Part shown: piece after piece, positions 32,916 to 43,519 of the stretch | Position numbering within the stretch: position 1 is the first letter of the stretch | Layout of the letters: the number at the start of each line of letters is the position of its first letter | From: Haloarchaeobius iranensis | GTDB lineage: Archaea > Halobacteriota > Halobacteria > Halobacteriales > Natrialbaceae | Reading direction: 5' to 3' | Assembly: GCF_900103505.1 (NCBI RefSeq) | Contig: NZ_FNIA01000006.1 | Coordinates: 124,001 to 188,000, forward strand | Length of the DNA: 64,000 nucleotides | The notes under the pieces: generated by a model | Told to the model about the DNA's origin: nothing | The model's input: the letters and a program-made list of their open reading frames with translations, nothing else | The model's database searches: none | Translations under genes and position numbers: made by a program

Positions 32916-33851
32916 CTACCCGACGAGCGTCGCGAGCAGCGCCTTCTGGGCGTGCATCCGGTTCTCGGCCTGCTGCCAGACGACCGACCGGTCGCTCTCG
33001 ATGGTCTCCTCGGTGATCTCCTGCCCGCGGACCGCCGGCAGGCAGTGCATCACCTTCGCGTCGGTGCCGTCGAGCAGCGACTCGCTCAGCGTGAAACCGT
33101 CGAAGTCGTCGACCTTGTCGTCGTCCTCGCCCATGCTCACCCAGACGTCGGTGTAGACGATGTCGGCGTCAGCGACGGCGGTCGCCGGGTCGGTCGTCAC
33201 CGTCGGCGGGGTCCCGACCTCGGCTGCCGCCTCGAGCACCTCGTCGGCCAGCCCGTGGCCCTCGGGGCAGGCGACGGTGAGGTCGATGCCGACCATCGCA
33301 CAGCCGACGGCGAACGAACTGGCGACGTTGTTGCCGTCGCCGACCCACGCCGCCGTCACGTCGTCGAAGCCGCCGAACAGCTCCTTGATGGTGAGCAGGT
33401 CGGCGAGCGTCTGGCACGGGTGCGCGTCGTCGGTCAGGCCGTTGACCACCGGCACCTCGGCGTAGGCCGCCAGCTCGGCCAGGTCGTCGTGGTCGAACAC
33501 GCGAGCCATGATCGCGTCGACGTAGCCCGAGAGCGCGCGGGCGGTGTCCTTCACCGGTTCGCCGCGGTCGAGCTGGGTGTCTTCGGGCCCGAGGAAGACG
33601 GCGTGGCCGCCGAGCTGGGTCATCCCCGTCTCGAAGGAGACGCGGGTTCGCGTCGACGGCTTCTCGAACAGCATCGCGAGGGTCTTGTCGCCGAGTTCGC
33701 CGTGGGGCTCGCCGTCCTCGACGGCGCGCTTGTACTCGGCCGCGAGGTCGAGCACGGACTGGAGCTCGGCCGCCGACAGGTCGTCGACGGTGAGGAAGTG
33801 CTTCGGTGGCTGTGCTGGGTTCGGTGATGTCACGTCGGTGTGTGTGCTCAT
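32916..33851 (-). CDS. argF: Ornithine carbamoyltransferase
   Basis: 311 aa from ATG 33851. The carbamoyl-phosphate site is EKPSTRTRVSFE with DDAHPCQTLADLLT, and HCLPAVRGQEIT binds ornithine. It converts ornithine to citrulline. The last gene of the seven-gene lysW operon, its ATG overlaps the lysK stop (ATGA). Confidence 0.97.
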   Translation of the reverse strand: MSTHTDVTSPNPAQPPKHFLTVDDLSAAELQSVLDLAAEYKRAVEDGEPHGELGDKTLAMLFEKPSTRTRVSFETGMTQLGGHAVFLGPEDTQLDRGEPVKDTARALSGYVDAIMARVFDHDDLAELAAYAEVPVVNGLTDDAHPCQTLADLLTIKELFGGFDDVTAAWVGDGNNVASSFAVGCAMVGIDLTVACPEGHGLADEVLEAAAEVGTPPTVTTDPATAVADADIVYTDVWVSMGEDDDKVDDFDGFTLSESLLDGTDAKVMHCLPAVRGQEITEETIESDRSVVWQQAENRMHAQKALLATLVG

Positions 33852-34951
33852 TGCAGGTCGTCGCAGACGGTCTCGAGGACCGCGATGGCGCGGTCGTACT
33901 CGGGCAGTGCGAGGCGTTCGTCCGGTGCGTGGTCGAGGGCCGAGTCGCCCGGGCCGTAGGTGGCCATCGGGCAGTCCCACGCGCCGGCGAACAGGTTCAC
34001 GTCGGCCGTTCCGGTCTTCTTGAGGAGGCGAGGGGAGCCCCCTCGCTCTCGGATGCCGACGCGGAACGCTCGCCCGACCGCGCTGCGCGGGCTGTCGAGC
34101 ACGGGCGGGATGGCGTCGCGCCACTCGACGGTGCCCGCGTCGAGTTCGGCCTCGACTACCTCGCGTATCTCCTCGGCGCTGCTGCCCGGCGGGATGCGGA
34201 ACTGCACGTCGACCGTCGCCGCGACGGAGAGCCCGTCGTCGGCGACGCCGCCGGACACGTCCACGGGCTTTGCGGTCACCGACTCGAAGACGGCATCGTC
34301 CGGGCTGTCGAACGCGGCCTCGACCCGGTTCCACCACGCCATCGCGTGCTGGATGGCGTTTAGCTCCGGGCGCGACGTGTGGCCCGCCTCGGTCTCGACG
34401 CGGTAGGTCCCGGCGAGGAAGCCGCGGTAGCCGAGCGTCAGGGCGTCCCAGCCCGAGGGTTCGCCGTTGACGACCGCGTCGGGTACCTCGCGCTCCGCGA
34501 CCAGGTGGCGCGCGCCCCGGGAGTCGGTCTCCTCGCCGACGACGCCGACGAAGGAGACGCCCGTCCGCACCGCCGCGACGGCCATCGCACAGAGCGGGCC
34601 GGTCGCGTCGACGCTTCCCCGGCCCCGGAGGACGGCGGCATCCTGGGGTGCCTCGTCGTCGCCGCCCCAGGGCACGGGGTCGTCGGTCTCGTCCGGGCCA
34701 TCGATGCCCACGGGCACGTCGCCCGGGACGGTGTCGACGTGGGATGTCAGCAGCACCGCGTCGTCGGCCGGCGCGCGGACGTTGCCCACGTCGTCCAGCC
34801 ACGCCTCGCGGCCGTGGTCCCGCAGGAAGTCGCGCAGGTGCTCGGCGGCCGCGCGCTCCTCGCCGGTCGGCGACGGGATGGCGACCATGGATTCGAGCAG
34901 CTCCCGCGCGGCGGCGTCGGAGACCCCGCCACCGTCGGCCGCGTCGCTCAC
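33848..34951 (-). CDS. lysK: [LysW]-ornithine/lysine hydrolase (M20 peptidase family)
   Basis: 367 aa from GTG 34951. M20 metallopeptidase motifs LLTSHVDTVPGD (metal His/Asp), GRGSVDATGP and GVVGEETDSRGARHL are present. It releases ornithine (or lysine) from the LysW carrier, the job ArgE does in bacteria. It overlaps argD upstream (GTGA) and argF downstream (ATGA). Confidence 0.94.
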   Translation of the reverse strand: MSDAADGGGVSDAAARELLESMVAIPSPTGEERAAAEHLRDFLRDHGREAWLDDVGNVRAPADDAVLLTSHVDTVPGDVPVGIDGPDETDDPVPWGGDDEAPQDAAVLRGRGSVDATGPLCAMAVAAVRTGVSFVGVVGEETDSRGARHLVAEREVPDAVVNGEPSGWDALTLGYRGFLAGTYRVETEAGHTSRPELNAIQHAMAWWNRVEAAFDSPDDAVFESVTAKPVDVSGGVADDGLSVAATVDVQFRIPPGSSAEEIREVVEAELDAGTVEWRDAIPPVLDSPRSAVGRAFRVGIRERGGSPRLLKKTGTADVNLFAGAWDCPMATYGPGDSALDHAPDERLALPEYDRAIAVLETVCDDLQ

Positions 34952-36081
34952 GCCTCCGTCACCTCCAGCGTGGCTTCGAGCGCCCCGACGACCTCGTCGG
35001 CGTGGCGCTTTCGCAACGTCAGCGGCGGGAGCAGGCGCACGACGGTCCGCCCCGCCGGCAGCGCGAGGACCTGGTGGTTCATCGCGAGGTCGCGCAGGAC
35101 GCGGTTCGCGCCGCGCCCGATCTCGACGCCGACGAGCAGGCCCTCGCCGCGCACGTCCCGCACCGGCAGCTCGGAGAGGCGGTCGACGAGGTACTCGCCC
35201 ACCTCGGCCGCCTGCCCGGGCAGGTCCGCGTCGACGATGGTGTCGAGCGTCGCCGTCGCCGCCGCGGAGACGGCGGGCCCACCGGAGAACGTCGAGCCGT
35301 GTGGGCCGGCGTCCTCGGCGACCCAGTCGGTACAGAGCGTCGCCCCCATGGGAAGCCCGTTCGCGAGTCCCTTCGCCGTCGTCACCACGTCGGGGACGAC
35401 ACCCGCGGCCTCGCAGGCCCAGAACGTCCCCGTTCTACCGAGCCCGGTCTGTACCTCGTCGAAGACGAGCGCCGCGCCGTGGTCCGCCGTCGCCTCGCGG
35501 GCGGACTGCAGGAACTCCGTGGTACTGGGGTTCACGCCGCCCTCGCCCTGGACGGGTTCGAGGATGACCGCGGCCGTCTCGTCGTCGACGGCCTCGCGGA
35601 TGGCCTCGCTGTCGCCGTAGTCCACGAACTCCACGTCGTCGAGCAGCGGTTCGAACGGCGCACGGTACTTGGGCTTCCAGGTGGTCGACAGCGCGCCCAT
35701 CGTCCGGCCGTGGAACCCCTTCTTCGTCGCGACGAACTTGGTCCCGTCAGTGGCGCTACGGGCGAACTTCAGCGCCGCCTCGTTGGCCTCGGTGCCGGAG
35801 TTACAGAGCCAGACGTTCTCCACCCCCGGCGGGGCGACCGACGACAGCTTCTCGTACAGCTCGTCGCGGGCGCTCGTCGGGTACGAGCCCTGGACGTAGG
35901 TGAGGTCGGCGAGCTGTGACTGGGCCGCCTCGACGACGTCGGGGTGCCCGTGGCCGGCGGGCACGCAGGCGTAGCTCGCGCCCACGTCCAGGTACTCGGT
36001 GCCCGAGTCGTCGTAGAGGAACACGTCCTCCCCGCGCTCGATGGTGATGGGCTTGCGCGAGAAGACGAAGTCGGTGGGCAT
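34948..36081 (-). CDS. argD: [LysW]-aminoadipate/glutamate semialdehyde aminotransferase (ArgD/LysJ)
   Basis: 377 aa class-III PLP aminotransferase. The cofactor lysine is in VTTAKGLANGLPMGA; LVFDEVQTGLGRTGTFWACE and NVWLCNSGTEANEAALKFAR are conserved. It aminates the carrier-bound semialdehyde to give LysW-ornithine. Its ATG directly follows the argB stop (TAG ATG), and it overlaps lysK by 4 bp. Confidence 0.95.
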   Translation of the reverse strand: MPTDFVFSRKPITIERGEDVFLYDDSGTEYLDVGASYACVPAGHGHPDVVEAAQSQLADLTYVQGSYPTSARDELYEKLSSVAPPGVENVWLCNSGTEANEAALKFARSATDGTKFVATKKGFHGRTMGALSTTWKPKYRAPFEPLLDDVEFVDYGDSEAIREAVDDETAAVILEPVQGEGGVNPSTTEFLQSAREATADHGAALVFDEVQTGLGRTGTFWACEAAGVVPDVVTTAKGLANGLPMGATLCTDWVAEDAGPHGSTFSGGPAVSAAATATLDTIVDADLPGQAAEVGEYLVDRLSELPVRDVRGEGLLVGVEIGRGANRVLRDLAMNHQVLALPAGRTVVRLLPPLTLRKRHADEVVGALEATLEVTEA

Positions 36082-36957
36082 CTACTGACTCACCTCCGGT
36101 TCGTCGGCGTCGGCATCGGTGTCGTCACCGAGCGCACTCGGCAGCAGCGTCGTCCCGTCGCCGGCCAGTGCGGACTGGATGGGCGCGTCGGCGTTCGCGG
36201 TGGCGACGACGACGGAGGACGCGCCGCCGTCGAGTGCCTCCTCGGCCGCGAGCACCTTCCGGGTCATGAACCCCTCCGCCGCGGCTTCGAGGGCGTCCCA
36301 GTCGGCCGCCGTCTCGACGGTGTCGATGCGGGTCGACTCGTCGTCGGGGTCCGCGTAGACCCCGGAGATGTCCGTGAGGACCACGAGGTCCGCGCCGAGT
36401 GCGCCAGCCACCGCAGCGGCGGCGCGGTCGGCGTCGGCGTTGACCGCGGTGTACGTGCCGTCGCCCTCCGCGCCGAGCATCGGGACGGTCACGACGGGCG
36501 TGTAGCCGCCCGAGAGCATGGTCTCGAGGAGGTCGACGTTCACCGACTCGATGGTGCCGGAGTGGTCGCCGCGGCGGATCTTCTTCTTCCCGTCTTCGAG
36601 GACGCGAACGGCGGACTTGCGCGGCCCTTCGAGCAGGCCGCCGTCGACGCCCGAGAGCCCGACCGCGTCGACCCCCTCGCTCTGGAGCGACTCGACGAGC
36701 CCCGTGTTGAGCTTGCCGGGCAGCACCATCTGGAACACCTCGACGGCGTCCGCGTCGGTGAAGCGCCCGACGACGCCGCCGGGCGTCTCGACGTACTCGG
36801 GCTCCATGCCGAGCGATTCGAGGGTGTCGTCGACCGCGGTCGAGCCGCCGTGGACGACGACGACGTCCTCGCCCGACTCGACGAGGTCCGCTACGTCGGC
36901 GAGCGCGCCTTCGGGGTCGACGGCACGCGCACCGCCGACTTTGACCACAACCGACAT
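36082..36957 (-). CDS. argB: [LysW]-glutamate/aminoadipate kinase (ArgB/LysZ)
   Basis: 291 aa amino-acid kinase fold. VVVKVGGARAV at the start, VVVHGGSTAVDDTLESLG and a late VNADADRAAAAVAGALGADLVVLTDISGVY segment are typical. It phosphorylates the carrier-bound glutamate. It is flanked without spacing by argC and argD. Confidence 0.95.
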   Translation of the reverse strand: MSVVVKVGGARAVDPEGALADVADLVESGEDVVVVHGGSTAVDDTLESLGMEPEYVETPGGVVGRFTDADAVEVFQMVLPGKLNTGLVESLQSEGVDAVGLSGVDGGLLEGPRKSAVRVLEDGKKKIRRGDHSGTIESVNVDLLETMLSGGYTPVVTVPMLGAEGDGTYTAVNADADRAAAAVAGALGADLVVLTDISGVYADPDDESTRIDTVETAADWDALEAAAEGFMTRKVLAAEEALDGGASSVVVATANADAPIQSALAGDGTTLLPSALGDDTDADADEPEVSQ

Positions 36958-38082
36958 CTACGGACTCCCCACGGGGTGCAGCCCCGCGAACTCGAGTCCG
37001 GCGGTCTCCTCGAAGCCGAGCGCGACGTTGGCGGCGTGGACCGCCTGCCCGGCCGAGCCCTTCATCACGTTGTCGATGGCCGAGAACACGACGACGCGCT
37101 CGTTGCCGGGGTCCAGCTCGAACCCCACGTCGGCGTAGTTCGTCCCGGCGACGGCCTTCGGTTCGGGGTAGCGGTACGACCCGGAACCGCCGGCGACGAG
37201 CCGGACGAACGGCTCCGCCTCGTACGCGCCGCGGTAGGCCGTCCAGAGCTCTTTCTTCGAGACCGGTCCATCCGGAAAGACGTGGCAGGTCGCGCTCGCG
37301 CCCCGCACCATGTCGACGGCGTGGCAGGTGAAGGAGACGGAGAGCCCGAGCCACTGCTCGATCTCGGCCTCGTGGCGGTGGCCCGTCGGCGCGTACGGGC
37401 GGACGACGCCCGAGCGCTCGGCGTGGCTGGAGGCCGCGCCGCCGCCAGCGCCGCCTTCGCTGCTGCCGACCTTCACGTCCACGACGACGTCCGCGCCGTC
37501 TCGCGGCTCACCGCCGCTCGACGTATCCGAGGCGCCTTGCGCCTCGCTGCCGAGGACGCCGGCATCTGCGAGCGGTTTCAGCCCGAGCAGCGTCGCCGTC
37601 GCGTTGCAGCCGCCCGAGGCGATGATGTCCGCGTCCCCCAGGTTCTCGCGGTTGAGCTCGGGCAGCGCGTACTCGGCCACCTCCAGGTACTCGGGGGCCG
37701 TGTGGCCGTCGTACCACTCGTCGTACTGTCCCTCGGTGGCGAGGCGGAAGTCCGCCGAGAGGTCGACGAGCAGGTCCGCGGCGTCCGTGTACTCCTCGAC
37801 GTGCTCCATCGTGATGCCGTGGGGCGTCGCGGTGAACAGCACGTCGACGGATTCGAGCGCCGAGGGCTCCGAGAAGCGCAGCTCGCGCCCGCGGAGGTTC
37901 GGGTGGACCCCGCCGATGGACTTGCCGGCGTACTCGCGGCTCGTCGCCTGCACGAGCTCGACGTTCGGATGGCCGTCGAGCAGCCGCAGGAGCTCGCCGC
38001 CGGCGAAGCCGGAGCCACCGACGACGCCCGCGGTGACGGTCTCCGTCTCGGCGTCGGCGTCGGCCGCAGCGGTGGTCCCCAC
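36958..38082 (-). CDS. argC: [LysW]-glutamyl phosphate reductase (ArgC/LysY)
   Basis: 374 aa from GTG 38082. A Rossmann start VTAGVVGGSGFAGGELLRLL, the catalytic Cys in IIASGGCNATATLLGLKPL, and VVVDVKVGSSEGGAGGG are family marks. Between about residues 175 and 200 there appears to be a low-complexity insertion (GSEAQGASDTSSGGEPRDGAD), whose DNA holds a perfect palindrome at 37529-37545. The start overlaps the argX stop by one base (TAGTG). Confidence 0.95.
   Translation of the reverse strand: MGTTAAADADAETETVTAGVVGGSGFAGGELLRLLDGHPNVELVQATSREYAGKSIGGVHPNLRGRELRFSEPSALESVDVLFTATPHGITMEHVEEYTDAADLLVDLSADFRLATEGQYDEWYDGHTAPEYLEVAEYALPELNRENLGDADIIASGGCNATATLLGLKPLADAGVLGSEAQGASDTSSGGEPRDGADVVVDVKVGSSEGGAGGGAASSHAERSGVVRPYAPTGHRHEAEIEQWLGLSVSFTCHAVDMVRGASATCHVFPDGPVSKKELWTAYRGAYEAEPFVRLVAGGSGSYRYPEPKAVAGTNYADVGFELDPGNERVVVFSAIDNVMKGSAGQAVHAANVALGFEETAGLEFAGLHPVGSP
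37529..37545. repeat. Palindrome GAGGCGC-CTT-GCGCCTC inside argC
   Basis: Perfect 7-bp arms around CTT, lying in the stretch of argC that encodes the apparent extra low-complexity residues. The reading frame stays open. Confidence 0.75.
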
Positions 38083-38966
38083 TACGCCGTCACCTCCGCC
38101 GCATCCGTGTCGAGGCCGGGCTCCACGACCGACTCCAGCCAGTCGACGACCGTCGCGGGCACGTCGACGGCGGTCGCGTCGTTGAGCGACTTGAACTCGA
38201 CGGTATGGTTGACCTCGTGGACGGTGTAGCCGCCCTCCTCGGTCTCCATCAGGTCCACACCCAGGAGCCCGCCGCCGACCGCGTCGCTGGCGCGCTGGAC
38301 GAGGTCGCAGACCTCGTCGTCGAGGTCGAACTCCTCGGTGTCCGCGCCCTTCGCGGCGTTCGTGAGCCAGTGGTCCGACGAGCGGGCCATCGCCGCGACG
38401 GGCTCGCCGTCGGTGGCGAGGACGCGCAGGTCGCGGTCCGGCTTGCCGACGAACTCCTGGACGTAGAACACCGAGTGCTCGTAGTGCCCGAGCGTCGACT
38501 TGTGTTCGAGGATGGCCTCGGCGGCCGAGCGCGACTCGACCTTCGCCATCAGGCGACCCCACGAGCCGACGACCGGCTTGAGGACGCAGGGGTAGCCGAA
38601 CGACTCGATGGCCTCGAGGGCGGCGTCGGTCGTGAACGCGACCTTCGTGTCGGGCGTGGGGACGCCCGCGTCGGCGAGCGCGAGGCTCGTCTTCGCCTTG
38701 TCCGCGCAGATGTCGGCGGTCTCGGCCGCGTTGACGACCGGGATGCCGTACGCCTCGCAGAACTGCGTCGCGTAGAGGCTCCGCGAGGTCGCCATACAGC
38801 GGTCGAGCACCACGTCCAGCCCGTCGAACGAGTCGGGGGCCTCGTGGAGGTCGAACTGCTGTTTCCGCACGTCGATCTTGACGACCTCGTGGTCGCGGTC
38901 GCGCAGTTCCGCGAGCAGGAGCTTCTCGTCCCGGCGGATGCGCGAGTAGAGCAGTCCGACCTTCAC
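38082..38966 (-). CDS. argX: Glutamate/aminoadipate-[LysW] ligase (ArgX/LysX)
   Basis: 294 aa from GTG 38966 (VKVGLLYSRIRRDEKLL); GTG 38975 three codons upstream is also possible. ATP-grasp/RimK fold: FGYPCVLKPVVGSWGRLMAKV binds ATP, and VNHTVEFKSL near the end is a metal-binding part. It attaches the alpha-amino group of glutamate (or aminoadipate) to the C-terminal Glu of LysW. It follows lysW by about 57 bp and overlaps argC by one base. Without lysine-pathway genes here, an arginine role is most likely. Confidence 0.93.
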   Translation of the reverse strand: MKVGLLYSRIRRDEKLLLAELRDRDHEVVKIDVRKQQFDLHEAPDSFDGLDVVLDRCMATSRSLYATQFCEAYGIPVVNAAETADICADKAKTSLALADAGVPTPDTKVAFTTDAALEAIESFGYPCVLKPVVGSWGRLMAKVESRSAAEAILEHKSTLGHYEHSVFYVQEFVGKPDRDLRVLATDGEPVAAMARSSDHWLTNAAKGADTEEFDLDDEVCDLVQRASDAVGGGLLGVDLMETEEGGYTVHEVNHTVEFKSLNDATAVDVPATVVDWLESVVEPGLDTDAAEVTA

Positions 38967-39023
38967 GCCGCCCACCTCGACCCGCAGTCCAGCGTCGGGA
39001 GTGCCTGTGCCAGCCCCGTCATC

Positions 39024-39188
39024 CTACTCACCCCAGTCCTCGGCCAGCTCGGGCGCCACGTCCAGCGTGACGGGGTCGGTGTCGATCACTTCGAGCTCGG
39101 CACCGCAGGTGGTACAGTCGACGATCTCTCCGGCTTCGAGGTCCTCGTGCAGGGACAGTGCTGCCCCGCATTCGACGCATTCTGTCAT
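39024..39188 (-). CDS. lysW: Amino-group carrier protein LysW (ArgW)
   Basis: 54 aa, very acidic. Two zinc CxxC pairs (MTECVECGAALS and DCTTCGAELEV) and the C-terminal EDWGE, whose final Glu gamma-carboxyl carries the substrate, are exactly those of LysW. It is the first gene of lysW-argX-argC-argB-argD-lysK-argF. It has its own TATA box (39213-39220), so this group can be expressed apart from argGH. Confidence 0.95.
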   Translation of the reverse strand: MTECVECGAALSLHEDLEAGEIVDCTTCGAELEVIDTDPVTLDVAPELAEDWGE

Positions 39189-39382: not shown

Positions 39383-40909
39383 TCAGACATGGTCGGTCAC
39401 CTCTGCGGTGAGTTCGTCGTGGGCGGCGGCGATACCCTCGGCGATGCCCTCGACGACCGCCCGGTCGCTGGTGAGGGAGCGCTCGGCCTCGTTCAGCGCG
39501 TCGGCGACGGCGTCGGGTGCGGGGCCGCCGGCCGAGTCGCGCATCGTCACGCTGGCGGCCGGGTCCAGCGCCGTCTCGACCGCCTCGCGCTCGACGTACG
39601 CCGCGATGGACTCGCCGAGGGTCTGCTCGGTCGCCTCGTCGATGATGGCGTAGTCGGGCTCGGTGCCGGCCGCGCTCGCGAGCTCGCCGGCCGTCGCGAC
39701 GACCTCGTGGGCCGTGCGGAACGGCAGGCCGGCCATCGCGAGCAGGTCGGCGACGCCCGTCGCGGTCGAGAAGTTCGAGCCGGCCTCCGCGGCCAGCGTC
39801 TCCTCGTTCCACGTCGCCGTGGCGACCCCGCCCGCCGCGACCTCGGTCGCCTCGGTGACGGCGTCGACCGTCGCCCAGACGTGCGGCGTCGCGTTCTGCA
39901 GGTCGCGGTTGTACGCGCGGGGCAGCCCCTTCAGCGTCGTCAGCAGCCCCGTCAGACTGCCCGAGGCGTCGCCCGCGACCGAGCGGACGAGCTCGAACGT
40001 GTCCGGGTTCTTCTTCTGGGGCATGATGGAGGAGGTCGACGAGTAGTCGTCCGAGAGTTCGAGGTAGCCCTGGTTCGCGAAGAGGACGACGTCCTCCGCG
40101 AGCCCCGACAGCGTGGTCGCGAGCGCGGCCAGCGCGGCCGCCGACTCCACGAGGAAGTCACGGGCGGCGACGGCGTCGGTCGCGTTCGTGATGACCTCGT
40201 CGAAGCCGAGCAGCTCGGCCGTGCGCTCGCGGTCCACGTCGAAGGGCGTGCCGGCGAACGCGGCCGCGCCGAGCGGCGACCGGTTCACGCGCTCGAAGGC
40301 GTCGAGGAGGCGCTCGGTGTCGCGCGCCAGCGCCGACTCGTACGACAGCAGGTAGTGCCCCACCGTCGTCGGCTGGGCGTGCTGCAGGTGCGTGAAGCCG
40401 GGCATCGTCGTCTCGGCGTGCGCCTCGGCGGCCTCGAACAGCACGGCACGCAGGTCACAGACCGCCGTCGCCGCGTCGAGGAGGTCCTCGCGCAGGCGGT
40501 ACCGGATGCAGGTCGCCACCTCGTCGTTGCGCGAGCGGGCGGTGTGCATCTTCCCGCCGTCGGGGCCGACCTGCTCGACGACGGCCGTCTCGATGGCCTC
40601 GTGGACGTCCTCGCCCGCGGGCAGGGCCGCGTGGCCCTCGACCTCGACGACGTTCAGCGCGGTGAGTATCTCGGCGGCGATGTCGTCCTCGATGACGTCC
40701 TGTTCGGCGAGCATGACGACGTGCGCGCGGTCGACGGCCACGTCGGCCGCGAAGATGCGCTCGTCGGCGGCGAGCGACGAGAGGAAGCCACGGGCCGGGC
40801 CGCCGCTGAAGCGGTCGCCGCGGACCGCGGTCCCGTCGCTCCCGCCGAGGCTGTCGCCGTCGTCGCCGTCGAGGGTGAACTCGCCGTCGTCGCCGCCGAA
40901 GCCGGCCAT
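39383..40909 (-). CDS. argH: Argininosuccinate lyase
   Basis: 508 aa from ATG 40909 (MAGFGGDDGEFTLDGDDGD...); an earlier in-frame ATG inside argG is possible. The fumarase-superfamily signature SSIMPQKKNPDTFELVRS, plus GGKMHTARSRNDEVAT and FTHLQHAQPTTVGHYLLSY, are intact. It splits argininosuccinate into arginine and fumarate. An acidic N-terminal extension of about 25 residues is a halophile feature. The start lies two bases after the first base of the argG stop. Confidence 0.96.
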   Translation of the reverse strand: MAGFGGDDGEFTLDGDDGDSLGGSDGTAVRGDRFSGGPARGFLSSLAADERIFAADVAVDRAHVVMLAEQDVIEDDIAAEILTALNVVEVEGHAALPAGEDVHEAIETAVVEQVGPDGGKMHTARSRNDEVATCIRYRLREDLLDAATAVCDLRAVLFEAAEAHAETTMPGFTHLQHAQPTTVGHYLLSYESALARDTERLLDAFERVNRSPLGAAAFAGTPFDVDRERTAELLGFDEVITNATDAVAARDFLVESAAALAALATTLSGLAEDVVLFANQGYLELSDDYSSTSSIMPQKKNPDTFELVRSVAGDASGSLTGLLTTLKGLPRAYNRDLQNATPHVWATVDAVTEATEVAAGGVATATWNEETLAAEAGSNFSTATGVADLLAMAGLPFRTAHEVVATAGELASAAGTEPDYAIIDEATEQTLGESIAAYVEREAVETALDPAASVTMRDSAGGPAPDAVADALNEAERSLTSDRAVVEGIAEGIAAAHDELTAEVTDHV

Positions 40910-40910
40910 C

Positions 40911-42179
40911 TCAGTCGTCCGCGGTGAGTTCGACATCTGTCTCGTCCTCGTCCGTGCCGCCCGCGTTGGCGAGGCGGGCCTGGAAGCCGTGGTACTTGGC
41001 GACGCCCGTCGCATCCGCCTGTGCGATGCCGTCGACGGTCTCCGTGTCGAACGACGCCGCCGACTCGGAGTAGACGGCGTGCTCGCTCTCGCGACCGACC
41101 GGGCGGACCGTCCCGCCCTGGAGCTTCACCGTCACCGTGCCGGTCACGTTCTCCTGGCTCGCCGCGACGTAGGCGTTCAGCGACTTCATGATGGGCGCGT
41201 CGATGAGCCCCTCGTAGGCCTTCTTCGCCCACTGGTGCTCGACCTGGGGCTTGAACTCGCGCTCGTCGGCGGTGAACACGAGCTGTTCGAGCGCCTCGTG
41301 TGCGGTGAGCAGCACCGTCGCGGCCGGGTGCTCGTAGTTCTCACGCACCTTCAGGCCGAGCATGCGGTCCTCCATCATGTCCGTGCGGCCGACGCCGTAC
41401 GCGCCGGCGTACTCGTTGAGGAACTCGATGAGCTCGACCGCATCGAGCTCGCCGCCTTCGCCGTCGGCCGTGGTCGCCGAGACGGGGTAGCCCTGCTCGA
41501 ACTCGACGGTGATGGTCGTCGTCTCGCCCGTGGGCGCGTCGGTCCACTCGTAGATGTCCTCCGGCGGCTGGTAGCTCGGGTCCTCGAGGTTCTTCCCCTC
41601 GACCGAGCGGCTCCAGAGGTTCGTGTCGACCGACCAGTCGCCCTCGTTGCCGCCCTCGACGGGCAGCTCCTTCTCGGCGGCGTACTCCTGCTCCCACTCG
41701 CGAGTGAGCCCGAGTTCGCGCACCGGCGCGATGACCTCGAGGTCGGAGTCGCGCCAGACTGCCTCGAAGCGGAGCTGGTCGTTGCCCTTGCCCGTACAGC
41801 CGTGAGCGATGCCGGTACAGCCCTGCTCGATGGCGACCTCGAGGATGGCCTCCGCGATGACCGGGCGGGCCATCGCCGTGCCGAGCGGGTAGCCCTGGTA
41901 CGTCGCGTTCGCGGTCACGGAGTCGAGGCAGAGCTCGGCGAACGCCTGTTTCGCGTCGACGACGTAGTGCTCCAGCCCGAGCGCCTCGGCCGTCTCCTCG
42001 GCCTCGTCGAACTCGGCCGCCGGCTGGCCGACGTCGACGGTGACGCCGATGACCTCGTCGTAGCCGTACTCCTCCTCGAGCAGCGGGACACAGACCGTCG
42101 TGTCCAGCCCGCCCGAGAACGCGAGTGCTACCTTCCCGCCCGATTCCTGTGTGCTGCCGTCCGATGTCGTGTGTGTCAT
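40911..42179 (-). CDS. argG: Argininosuccinate synthase
   Basis: 422 aa. The P-loop KVALAFSGGLDTTVCVPLL, AHGCTGKGNDQLRFEA and YGVGRTDMMEDRMLGLKVRENYE define the enzyme, which joins citrulline and aspartate with ATP. First gene of argGH. It is preceded by a long structured leader (42180-42355) and an operator-like dyad. Confidence 0.97.
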   Translation of the reverse strand: MTHTTSDGSTQESGGKVALAFSGGLDTTVCVPLLEEEYGYDEVIGVTVDVGQPAAEFDEAEETAEALGLEHYVVDAKQAFAELCLDSVTANATYQGYPLGTAMARPVIAEAILEVAIEQGCTGIAHGCTGKGNDQLRFEAVWRDSDLEVIAPVRELGLTREWEQEYAAEKELPVEGGNEGDWSVDTNLWSRSVEGKNLEDPSYQPPEDIYEWTDAPTGETTTITVEFEQGYPVSATTADGEGGELDAVELIEFLNEYAGAYGVGRTDMMEDRMLGLKVRENYEHPAATVLLTAHEALEQLVFTADEREFKPQVEHQWAKKAYEGLIDAPIMKSLNAYVAASQENVTGTVTVKLQGGTVRPVGRESEHAVYSESAASFDTETVDGIAQADATGVAKYHGFQARLANAGGTDEDETDVELTADD

Positions 42180-42355
42180 TGAATGTCGTGGAAACTGGCG
42201 GACTGACGTCCGCCGGAGTTAGTTGCAAACTGTGCCCAGCGCTGGGGATGAATGAGTGTGGCCCTAACGGGCCGGTCGTGGTCGCGGTCGTCGGACGGCA
42301 ACACCGCTCGCCGAAGAAGTGCGAGCGCGGAAGTCGCGGTGTTGCCTCATCGTAC
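42180..42355 (-). promoter_or_regulatory. Predicted structured 5' leader of argGH (four hairpins)
   Basis: From the TATA box at 42376-42384 the transcript would start near 42355, giving a leader of about 175 nt. In transcript order it holds: an 11-bp perfect stem GGCAACACCGC (42336-42346 with 42297-42307) containing a nested 6-bp stem (42321-42326 with 42306-42311); GGCCC-GTTA-GGGCC (42260-42273); palindrome CCCAGCGCTGGG (42235-42246); and 7-bp stem GGCGGAC-GTCA-GTCCGCC (42197-42214), ending 18 nt before the argG ATG. A weaker TATA nearer the gene cannot be excluded. Confidence 0.5.
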
Positions 42356-42375
42356 TCACTCATACAACGAGGCCG

Positions 42376-42384
42376 CTATTAAAG
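42376..42384 (-). promoter_or_regulatory. TATA box proposed for argGH
   Basis: CTTTAATAG on the minus strand is the best AT box in the 311-bp spacer for this direction. Confidence 0.5.
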
Positions 42385-42490: not shown

Positions 42491-42694
42491 ATGTTCGATG
42501 GAATCGACGACAGAGGCGACATCGAGGCCGAGTCGCTCCTGCTGGTCATCCTCGGCCTCGTCGTCGTCTGGATCGCACTGGAGGTCATCAGCGAGCTGCT
42601 CGGCCTGCTTGGCTGGCTCCTCGGGCCGTTCAAGCCGGTGCTCGGGCTGGCCATCGTCGTCATCATCGTCCTGTGGCTGACCGACCGCCTCTGA
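42491..42694 (+). CDS. Small membrane protein, haloarchaeal
   Basis: 67 aa. A short acidic head (MFDGIDDRGDIEAESL) is followed by two hydrophobic segments, about 16-40 (LLLVILGLVVVWIALEVISELLG) and about 46-63 (VLGLAIVVIIVLWL). It is probably a two-span membrane protein. A T-rich box (GTTTTTTACA) 24-31 nt upstream suggests a leaderless mRNA. Function unknown. Confidence 0.8.
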   Translation: MFDGIDDRGDIEAESLLLVILGLVVVWIALEVISELLGLLGWLLGPFKPVLGLAIVVIIVLWLTDRL

Positions 42695-42731
42695 CCGCCA
42701 GCCTCTTCTCCCGCGACTGCCGAGTACGACC

Positions 42732-43232
42732 GTGTTCAGCCTGAACGTCCCGGTCCCCGGCTCGGTCTCGCGGCTCGCCCACGAGCTCCAGCCGGCGCTC
42801 TTTGGCTTCGAGCGCGTCCGCGACGAACACACCCTGCTGGCAAAGCGCATCGGCGACCCGGACCACTTCGACGCCCGCACCCACGAGGTCCGCCGCGCCC
42901 TCCGCGGCCAGCCCGCCTTCGAGGTGCAGGTCACGGGCGTCGACTACTTCGCACAGCCCACCGTCGGCACCGCGCCGGTCGTCTACCTCGCCGTCGAGAG
43001 CCCCGGCCTGCGCGAACTGCACGACTCGCTGGTCGACGAGTTCGGCGCAATCGACGGGCTGGAGGGCGAAGACTACACGCCACACGTGACACTCGCCCGC
43101 GACGGCGACATGGCGAGTGCGGAGCGTGCTGCAGAGTACGACGTGGAGCCGGTGACGTGGACCGTGACCGAGCTGGAGTTCTTCGACGCTCAGTACCGGG
43201 AGGTCGCCGGGCGCATCTCGTTGCCAGCCTGA
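42732..43232 (+). CDS. 2'-5' RNA ligase / 2H phosphoesterase family protein
   Basis: 166 aa from GTG 42732. The second 2H motif is clear (YTPHVTLARDGD); the first is only partly matched (EHTLLAKRIG), so the catalytic pair may be altered. The overall layout (FSLNVPVPGSVSRLAHELQPAL ... FDAQYREVAGRISLPA) is that of haloarchaeal 2'-5' RNA ligase family proteins. It is more diverged from the canonical enzyme than ThpR at 26528-27082. Confidence 0.82.
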   Translation: MFSLNVPVPGSVSRLAHELQPALFGFERVRDEHTLLAKRIGDPDHFDARTHEVRRALRGQPAFEVQVTGVDYFAQPTVGTAPVVYLAVESPGLRELHDSLVDEFGAIDGLEGEDYTPHVTLARDGDMASAERAAEYDVEPVTWTVTELEFFDAQYREVAGRISLPA

Positions 43233-43324
43233 GAGCTTCCTGGCCCGTGTGAACCTGCATCCCCCATCGTGGTACCGCGACCCTCGGAACCCTTATCCCT
43301 CAGCCGCCTGAATATATTATCGTA

Positions 43325-43519
43325 ATGGCAAACGGTAAGGTTGACTTCTTCAACGACACAGGCGGCTACGGTTTCATCGAGACTGAGGATGCGGACGAGG
43401 ACGTTTTCTTCCACATGGAGGACGTTGGCGGACCGGACCTCGAAGAGGGACAGGAGATCGAATTCGACATCGAGGACGCCCCGAAGGGCCCCCGCGCGAC
43501 GAACGTCGTCCGTAACTAA
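43325..43519 (+). CDS. cspA: Cold-shock protein (CspA family)
   Basis: 64 aa single cold-shock domain: MANGKVDFFNDTGGYGFIETEDADEDVFFHMEDV with RNP1 (GYGFI) and RNP2 (DVFFHM), and the ending GPRATNVVRN. It is a nucleic-acid chaperone, highly expressed in haloarchaea. A TATA-like CCCTTATCC lies about 31 nt upstream, and a second AT-rich stretch adjoins the start. Confidence 0.95.
   Translation: MANGKVDFFNDTGGYGFIETEDADEDVFFHMEDVGGPDLEEGQEIEFDIEDAPKGPRATNVVRN

Follow-up and report, generated by a model that had tools for sequence, protein, structure and literature searches.

The argG gene in the window, i.e. the whole stretch of 64,000 nucleotides that was analysed, is preceded by a leader that we regard, with slightly better than even confidence, as an arginine-responsive leader-peptide attenuator of the argGHWXCBDEF cluster. 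The predicted anatomy of the sensor is well supported. The output step would be either termination or translation; the attenuator model assumes termination and not translational control of argG, and this choice is less certain. The leader combines a conserved upstream open reading frame (ORF) with an enrichment for codons of the end product and with hairpins that have fixed positions relative to these control codons and show compensating changes.

Promoter, ORF and hairpins of the leader in the window

According to Pfam and NCBIfam matches, the cluster is complete and runs in one direction with argG first. On the minus strand are located argG (argininosuccinate synthase, 40911..42179, PF00764 and PF20979; ATG at 42179), argH (argininosuccinate lyase, 39383..41014, PF00206 and PF14698; this is the listed ORF, and the real start is probably further in), argW (lysW-type carrier protein, 39024..39188, TIGR01206 and PF21344) and the remaining genes argX, argC, argB, argD, argE and argF (32916..38975, NCBIfam matches). 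Since a separate TATA box stands at leaderless distance before argW, the cluster may contain an internal promoter. The divergent neighbors on the plus strand (42491-43519) encode a small DUF7554 protein (PF24431), a 2'-5' RNA ligase family protein and a cold-shock-domain protein.

The leader promoter P1 is marked by the TATA box TTTAATA (42377..42383, minus strand). An ATG at 42350, 33 nt past the first T of this box, opens a leader ORF of 28 codons plus TAG (MRQHRDFRARTSSASGVAVRRPRPRPAR; 42264..42350, minus strand), the TAG ending at 42264. The spacing between TATA box and ATG fits a leaderless transcript. Directly before the stop codon stands a run of Arg codons with a CGA bias (CGA CGA CCG CGA CCA CGA CCG GCC CGT; 42267..42293, minus strand). 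An out-of-frame ATG at 42363, which would start a 340-codon ORF, was rejected as the start, because it is lost in relatives and lies just 20 nt from the TATA box. An Rfam scan of the window gave no match to a known riboswitch or leader family above the gathering score.

Four structures on the minus strand had been described in the first-pass annotation, and all of them are present. The first is hairpin H1, a perfect 11-bp stem (GGCAACACCGC/GCGGTGTTGCC, 42346-42336 with 42307-42297, fold z -3.64) with a nested 7-bp stem (42327-42321/42311-42305). H1 lies within the leader ORF, where codons 2-5 pair with codons 15-18. The second is the tetraloop hairpin H2 (GGCCC-GTTA-GGGCC, 42273-42260), which holds the stop codon of the ORF and is followed directly on its 3' side by a G-free, pyrimidine-rich tract (ACACTCATTCATCCCCA, 42243..42259). 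A 12-bp palindrome (CCCAGCGCTGGG, 42246-42235) and hairpin H3, a 7-bp stem with a tetraloop (42214-42208/42203-42197) that ends 18 nt before the argG ATG, complete the set. The 5' 94 nt of the leader, from H1 to H2, have a folding energy of -44.5 kcal/mol (z = -4.07; none of 200 shuffles as good), and the 3' part has a fold z of -1.95. In that annotation, these structures were taken for stems that compete within a long leader without translation, or for a separate non-coding RNA. This is not the reading that we favor, since a conserved ORF that looks translated and contains an Arg run occupies the first half of the leader. The Arg-rich ORF explains the presence of both H1, inside it, and H2, at its end. 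A separate short transcript ending near H2 would be compatible with attenuation.

Conservation and codon usage of the leader ORF

The argG upstream regions were drawn from a species-level genome collection and from the genus, family, order and phylum. The haloarchaeal set comprises 119 loci, with some species represented twice, and 103 distinct peptides. An Arg-rich leader ORF of 22-57 codons could be assigned in 118 of the 119 loci, including all six Haloarchaeobius genomes; the single exception (L056) has both the Arg run and H2, yet no ORF start was assigned in it. The leader of this locus is enlarged by several tandem hairpin-like units ahead of the usual Arg run and H2. In 111 of the 119 loci a TATA-like box is located 30-34 nt upstream of the leader ATG, which is the distance of a leaderless start. 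The conserved set thus consists of the TATA-to-ATG distance, the Arg run before the stop codon, H1 and H2 with changed arms that still pair, and the G-free tract. Additional genomes at the level of the order agree, including the divergent, A+T-richer L262, in which the peptide ends in RQRRPRRADF. The predicted element occurs in most haloarchaeal families and was seen in Haloferax species other than Haloferax volcanii, e.g. in L007, L022 and L032. The leader ORF is absent from f2, f9 and f11, three divergent families within the order, and, at the level of the phylum, from 20 non-haloarchaeal argG upstream regions. In one family (L194, L195, L255, L258 and L261) the leader ORF is far longer, rich in Arg and Pro, and contains two run segments, and two of these five loci seem to use a GTG start.

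Arg-rich frames arise by accident from high G+C, and both H2 and the run show conservation at the nucleotide level. Both facts would fit a leader that has no ORF at all but a structured RNA or DNA motif of the CGACGACCG type, with the open frame as a by-product of base composition. We consider this extremely improbable. Although the length of the ORF varies, start, Arg run and stop remain in one frame, and the TATA-to-ATG distance is fixed. Since the register of H2 relative to the ORF differs among leaders, the frame is not simply carried along by the hairpin. Within the Arg run, the first two codon positions are invariant as CG and the third varies between A and G. Furthermore, the ORF also occurs in the A+T-richer L262, and background DNA is almost devoid of such ORFs: a scan for a TATA box followed by a short ORF in 536 kb from the window and other haloarchaeal loci (both strands counted) returned two matches, the leader ORF and the real argW gene.

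Arg accounts for 22% of the leader ORFs overall, with 3-8 Arg residues in the densest 10 codons. Across species, the Arg codons of this densest window are CGA in 63.5% (324/510), CGG in 26% and CGC in 3.7% of cases; in argG itself, CGC makes up 72.6% and CGA 1.9%. Outside the densest window of the leader ORFs CGC is again the commonest codon (85 of 206) and CGA falls to 20%. The CGA bias is limited to the Arg run. Among substitutions between close pairs in the Arg window, third positions lead with 26 of 45, a small number from pairs that are not independent. In the genome to which the window belongs, the anticodons GCG, UCG, CCG, UCU and CCU are each represented by a single tRNA-Arg gene. Therefore, the CGA-rich run mainly uses the UCG isoacceptor, which is hardly used by argG. 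In theory, rare isoacceptors may keep their charge longer under starvation, which would blunt a CGA-based sensor.

The encoded peptides differ between genera in their N-terminal halves, apart from the base pairing of H1, and have only the Arg run in common. As with the fungal arginine attenuator peptide, an Arg/Pro-rich peptide could stall the ribosome at or near the stop codon in response to free arginine. The position of the run at the C-terminus and the frequent R-R-P motifs and P-G-L or P-G-R endings are consistent with such an arrest. However, the endings vary (PGL, PGR, PAR, RAL, ADF and APR), some ORFs continue for at least 15 codons beyond the run, and the P-G residues are largely dictated by the nucleotides of H2. 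The peptide sequence is thus not conserved in the manner required for fungal-type arrest, and a requirement for the peptide would leave the preference for CGA among synonymous codons unexplained. Hence, nascent-peptide arrest appears improbable.

Hairpins, G-free tract and the route to argG

Paired base changes in relatives were found for both H1 and H2. The arms of H1 change between lineages with the pairing kept: GGCAACACCGC/GCGGTGTTGCC in the window is replaced elsewhere by CCGTCGG/CCGACGG, CTGTCGG/CCGACAG, CCACCGGTA/TACCGGTGG or GCGGACTCGCGGCTC/GAGCCGCGAGTCCGT, and within the genus the outer pair changes from G-C to A-U in L085 and L086. Across the loci the H1 region, i.e. the ORF before the run, has a median fold z of -1.6, versus +0.1 in a control region that lies upstream of the TATA box. 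The best H1 helix exceeds that of codon-shuffled versions (Wilcoxon P = 8e-15, which is indicative, since the loci are related). For H2, the arm pairs GGGCC/GGCCC, GGCCC/GGGCC, GGGGTC/GACCCC and GGGCTC/GAGCCC occur in different lineages. The search for H2 demanded a stem, and only 2 of 117 leaders failed it. In L014-L016 and L018 the stop codon of the leader ORF does not lie within H2. A tool count on a MAFFT alignment placed both the paired cells and the covariation score above nearly all shuffles; this count is weakened by the misalignment of shifted H2 registers.

Control of arginine synthesis at the RNA level, as suggested in the first-pass annotation, is strongly supported, and the test named there, paired base changes in relatives, had a positive outcome for H1 and H2. 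Competition between stems, the means it proposed, is not the best reading. Of the stems themselves, H1 and H2 are kept as structures. The nested stem and the palindrome are specific to lineages, and H3 is kept within the genus and was not seen outside it. A role of the palindrome as operator or hairpin was discarded, since it is lost inside the genus (L085 and L086).

At positions 2-17 after H2, G accounts for 1.1% of the bases (15 of 1408 in 88 distinct leaders) versus 22.6% at positions 18-70, and the tract is C-rich at positions 14-17. No poly-T terminator follows directly after H2, and no conserved alternative pairing that would form a clear antiterminator was recognized.

It is possible, but rather doubtful, that the arginine-sensing ORF acts on the translation of argG or the stability of its mRNA and not on termination. 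Stalling could remodel the downstream RNA, or the position of a stalled or terminating ribosome could determine how accessible the argG start is or how far the RNA is exposed to RNases. The evidence from the ORF and its codons is identical to that for the attenuator, and the missing poly-T after H2 as well as interleaved stems ahead of argG in some families speak for such an action. The same holds for a 13/14 complement in the window between the leader ORF (42291-42304, comprising the 3' arm of H1 and the first part of the Arg run) and early codons of argG (42151-42164); when the longer stretch is folded, this complement is the dominant feature of the prediction. This long-range pairing, however, is not kept in the genus (L083-L086). 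Moreover, leader and argG are separated by a long spacer of variable length (76-156 nt), and in many lineages a second TATA-like box points to a near-leaderless start of argG.

By eye, interleaved stems that resemble an H-type pseudoknot were seen just upstream of argG in L062, L063, L066, L073, L076, L077, L079 and L264. Their arms change but match, e.g. CCGCCC..GTCGGGT..GGGCGG..ACCCGAC and, in L264, CACCGC..GTTCGG..GCGGTG..CCGAAC.

The second TATA-like box is located close to argG in at least 57 of 93 distinct leaders, and in 45 of these 57 the spacer contains at least four T in a row. In lineages with this box the leader is not the sole route to argG, since the box adjoins the gene; here, the leader transcript may supplement a leaderless route with one that is controlled by arginine. 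Lineages that lack the second box, such as the genus of the window, seem to rely on the leader promoter. In L010, L028, L064, L096, L101 and other loci of the Natrialbaceae type, as well as in L007 and L038 (Haloferacaceae type), the distance from the box to the argG start is about 45 nt, and the box is preceded by a conserved element, GGTTAGC...CGCTCTA or a similar sequence, that could be a regulator site.

The own TATA box of the leader, and the T run and second box that often separate it from argG, would also suit a small gene or small RNA that is independent of argG, happens to lie upstream of it and acts in trans or has no role in its control. We regard this as very improbable. Apart from the H1 pairing, the N-terminal peptide is unconserved between genera, and the apparent need for the leader promoter where the second box is missing argues against it as well. 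A covariance model of Arg run, H2 and G-free tract was searched in 40 whole genomes, some but not all of which had supplied sequences to the model, and gave a single strong match per genome. In all 24 genomes with a best match of E < 0.007 this match is located just upstream of argG, and in six members of the genus it is the only one below E = 0.02. A looser scan near carA, hisG and trpC detected nothing comparable, and Arg-rich ORFs near argS were isolated matches without consistency. For these targeted genes, analogues with His or Trp codons before hisG and trpC, and consistent Arg ORFs before carA and argS, were sought without success.

Proposed mechanism and related systems

We propose the following course of events for the attenuator. 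The first two steps are well supported from the sequence. Transcription would start at or beside the leader ATG, so that ribosomes load at the extreme 5' end. The ribosome would then read the ORF through H1 into the mostly CGA-encoded Arg run before the stop codon. If arginine is scarce, charged tRNA-Arg(UCG) presumably becomes short and the ribosome stalls in the run, beside or over the 5' arm of H2; if arginine is ample, the ribosome should reach the stop codon in H2 and depart. With the ribosome gone, H2 could fold, and H2 together with the G-free tract would promote early termination or 3'-end cleavage, hence little argG mRNA would be made. A stalled ribosome would block this effect of H2, and the cluster would be expressed. 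Timing matters in this model, because a ribosome at the stop codon would itself cover H2.

For the attenuator speak the position of the ORF at leaderless distance from its TATA box, the CGA run, the compensated hairpins H1 and H2, the G-free tract, the location before argG only, the arginine-pathway genes downstream and the presence of one tRNA-Arg(UCG) gene. The lack of a poly-T stretch after H2 and of a clear antiterminator, the second box near argG and the stop codons outside H2 in some leaders count against it. Hairpins are able to terminate in this group: in Haloferax, a hairpin taken from a coding region terminated 59% of the transcripts in vivo, although the intergenic signal consists of T stretches (PMC7237163).

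The chances appear evenly balanced that Archaea possess ribosome-mediated transcription attenuation of this kind, in which a leaderless CGA-rich ORF senses charged tRNA-Arg(UCG), its stop codon lies in a termination hairpin, and a G-free tract serves the archaeal termination machinery for loading or cleavage. If so, it would be an attenuator design without a Shine-Dalgarno start or a bacterial poly-U terminator across most haloarchaeal families, and it would show how genes with leaderless mRNAs can obtain amino acid feedback control. Since the element occurs before argG only and is present in the genetically tractable Haloferax, the question whether archaeal transcription-translation coupling is tight enough to control termination is now directly testable. 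An archaeal leader-peptide attenuator was not found in the open-access papers searched, and an earlier report may exist. The argG leader apparently is the first candidate of its kind in Archaea.

Leader-peptide attenuation is a textbook mechanism of Bacteria. Like the bacterial trp, his, leu, thr and ilv attenuators, the haloarchaeal leader has a short ORF rich in end-product codons and hairpins upstream of a biosynthetic operon. It differs from them by its archaeal promoter, its leaderless start and the stop codon in a hairpin, and it has neither poly-U after the last hairpin nor a clear antiterminator; termination is here a presumed step. The fungal arginine attenuator peptide (arg-2/CPA1 uORF) likewise is an upstream ORF that controls an arginine biosynthesis gene. 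Its sequence is conserved, it acts by nascent-chain arrest and it is not Arg-rich, whereas conservation of the haloarchaeal leader is limited to base pairing and the Arg codons.

Short ORFs in haloarchaeal leaders were also reported in a dRNA-seq survey of Haloferax volcanii, which lists 16 uORF peptides with isoelectric points of 4.2-6.7 and proposes no role in attenuation (PMC4983044). The list includes trpS and pheS but not argG, and some of its members have a second transcription start site at the main gene (PMC4983044). The cysteine leader ORFs of mycobacteria are leaderless (PMC4633059); their codon run is located near the stop, their pyrimidine-rich motifs have been proposed to be Rho sites, and they have no classical terminator (PMC1262725, PMC4633059). 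The haloarchaeal leader shares the leaderless start, the codon run near the stop, the pyrimidine-rich stretch and the lack of a classical terminator. The mycobacterial leaders, however, belong to cysteine and to Bacteria, and their upstream regions have no conserved hairpins (PMC1262725, PMC4633059), in contrast to arginine, Archaea and conserved hairpins in the present case. The bacterial amino acid attenuators are the nearest known systems in predicted function, and the mycobacterial cysteine leader ORFs are the nearest in anatomy.
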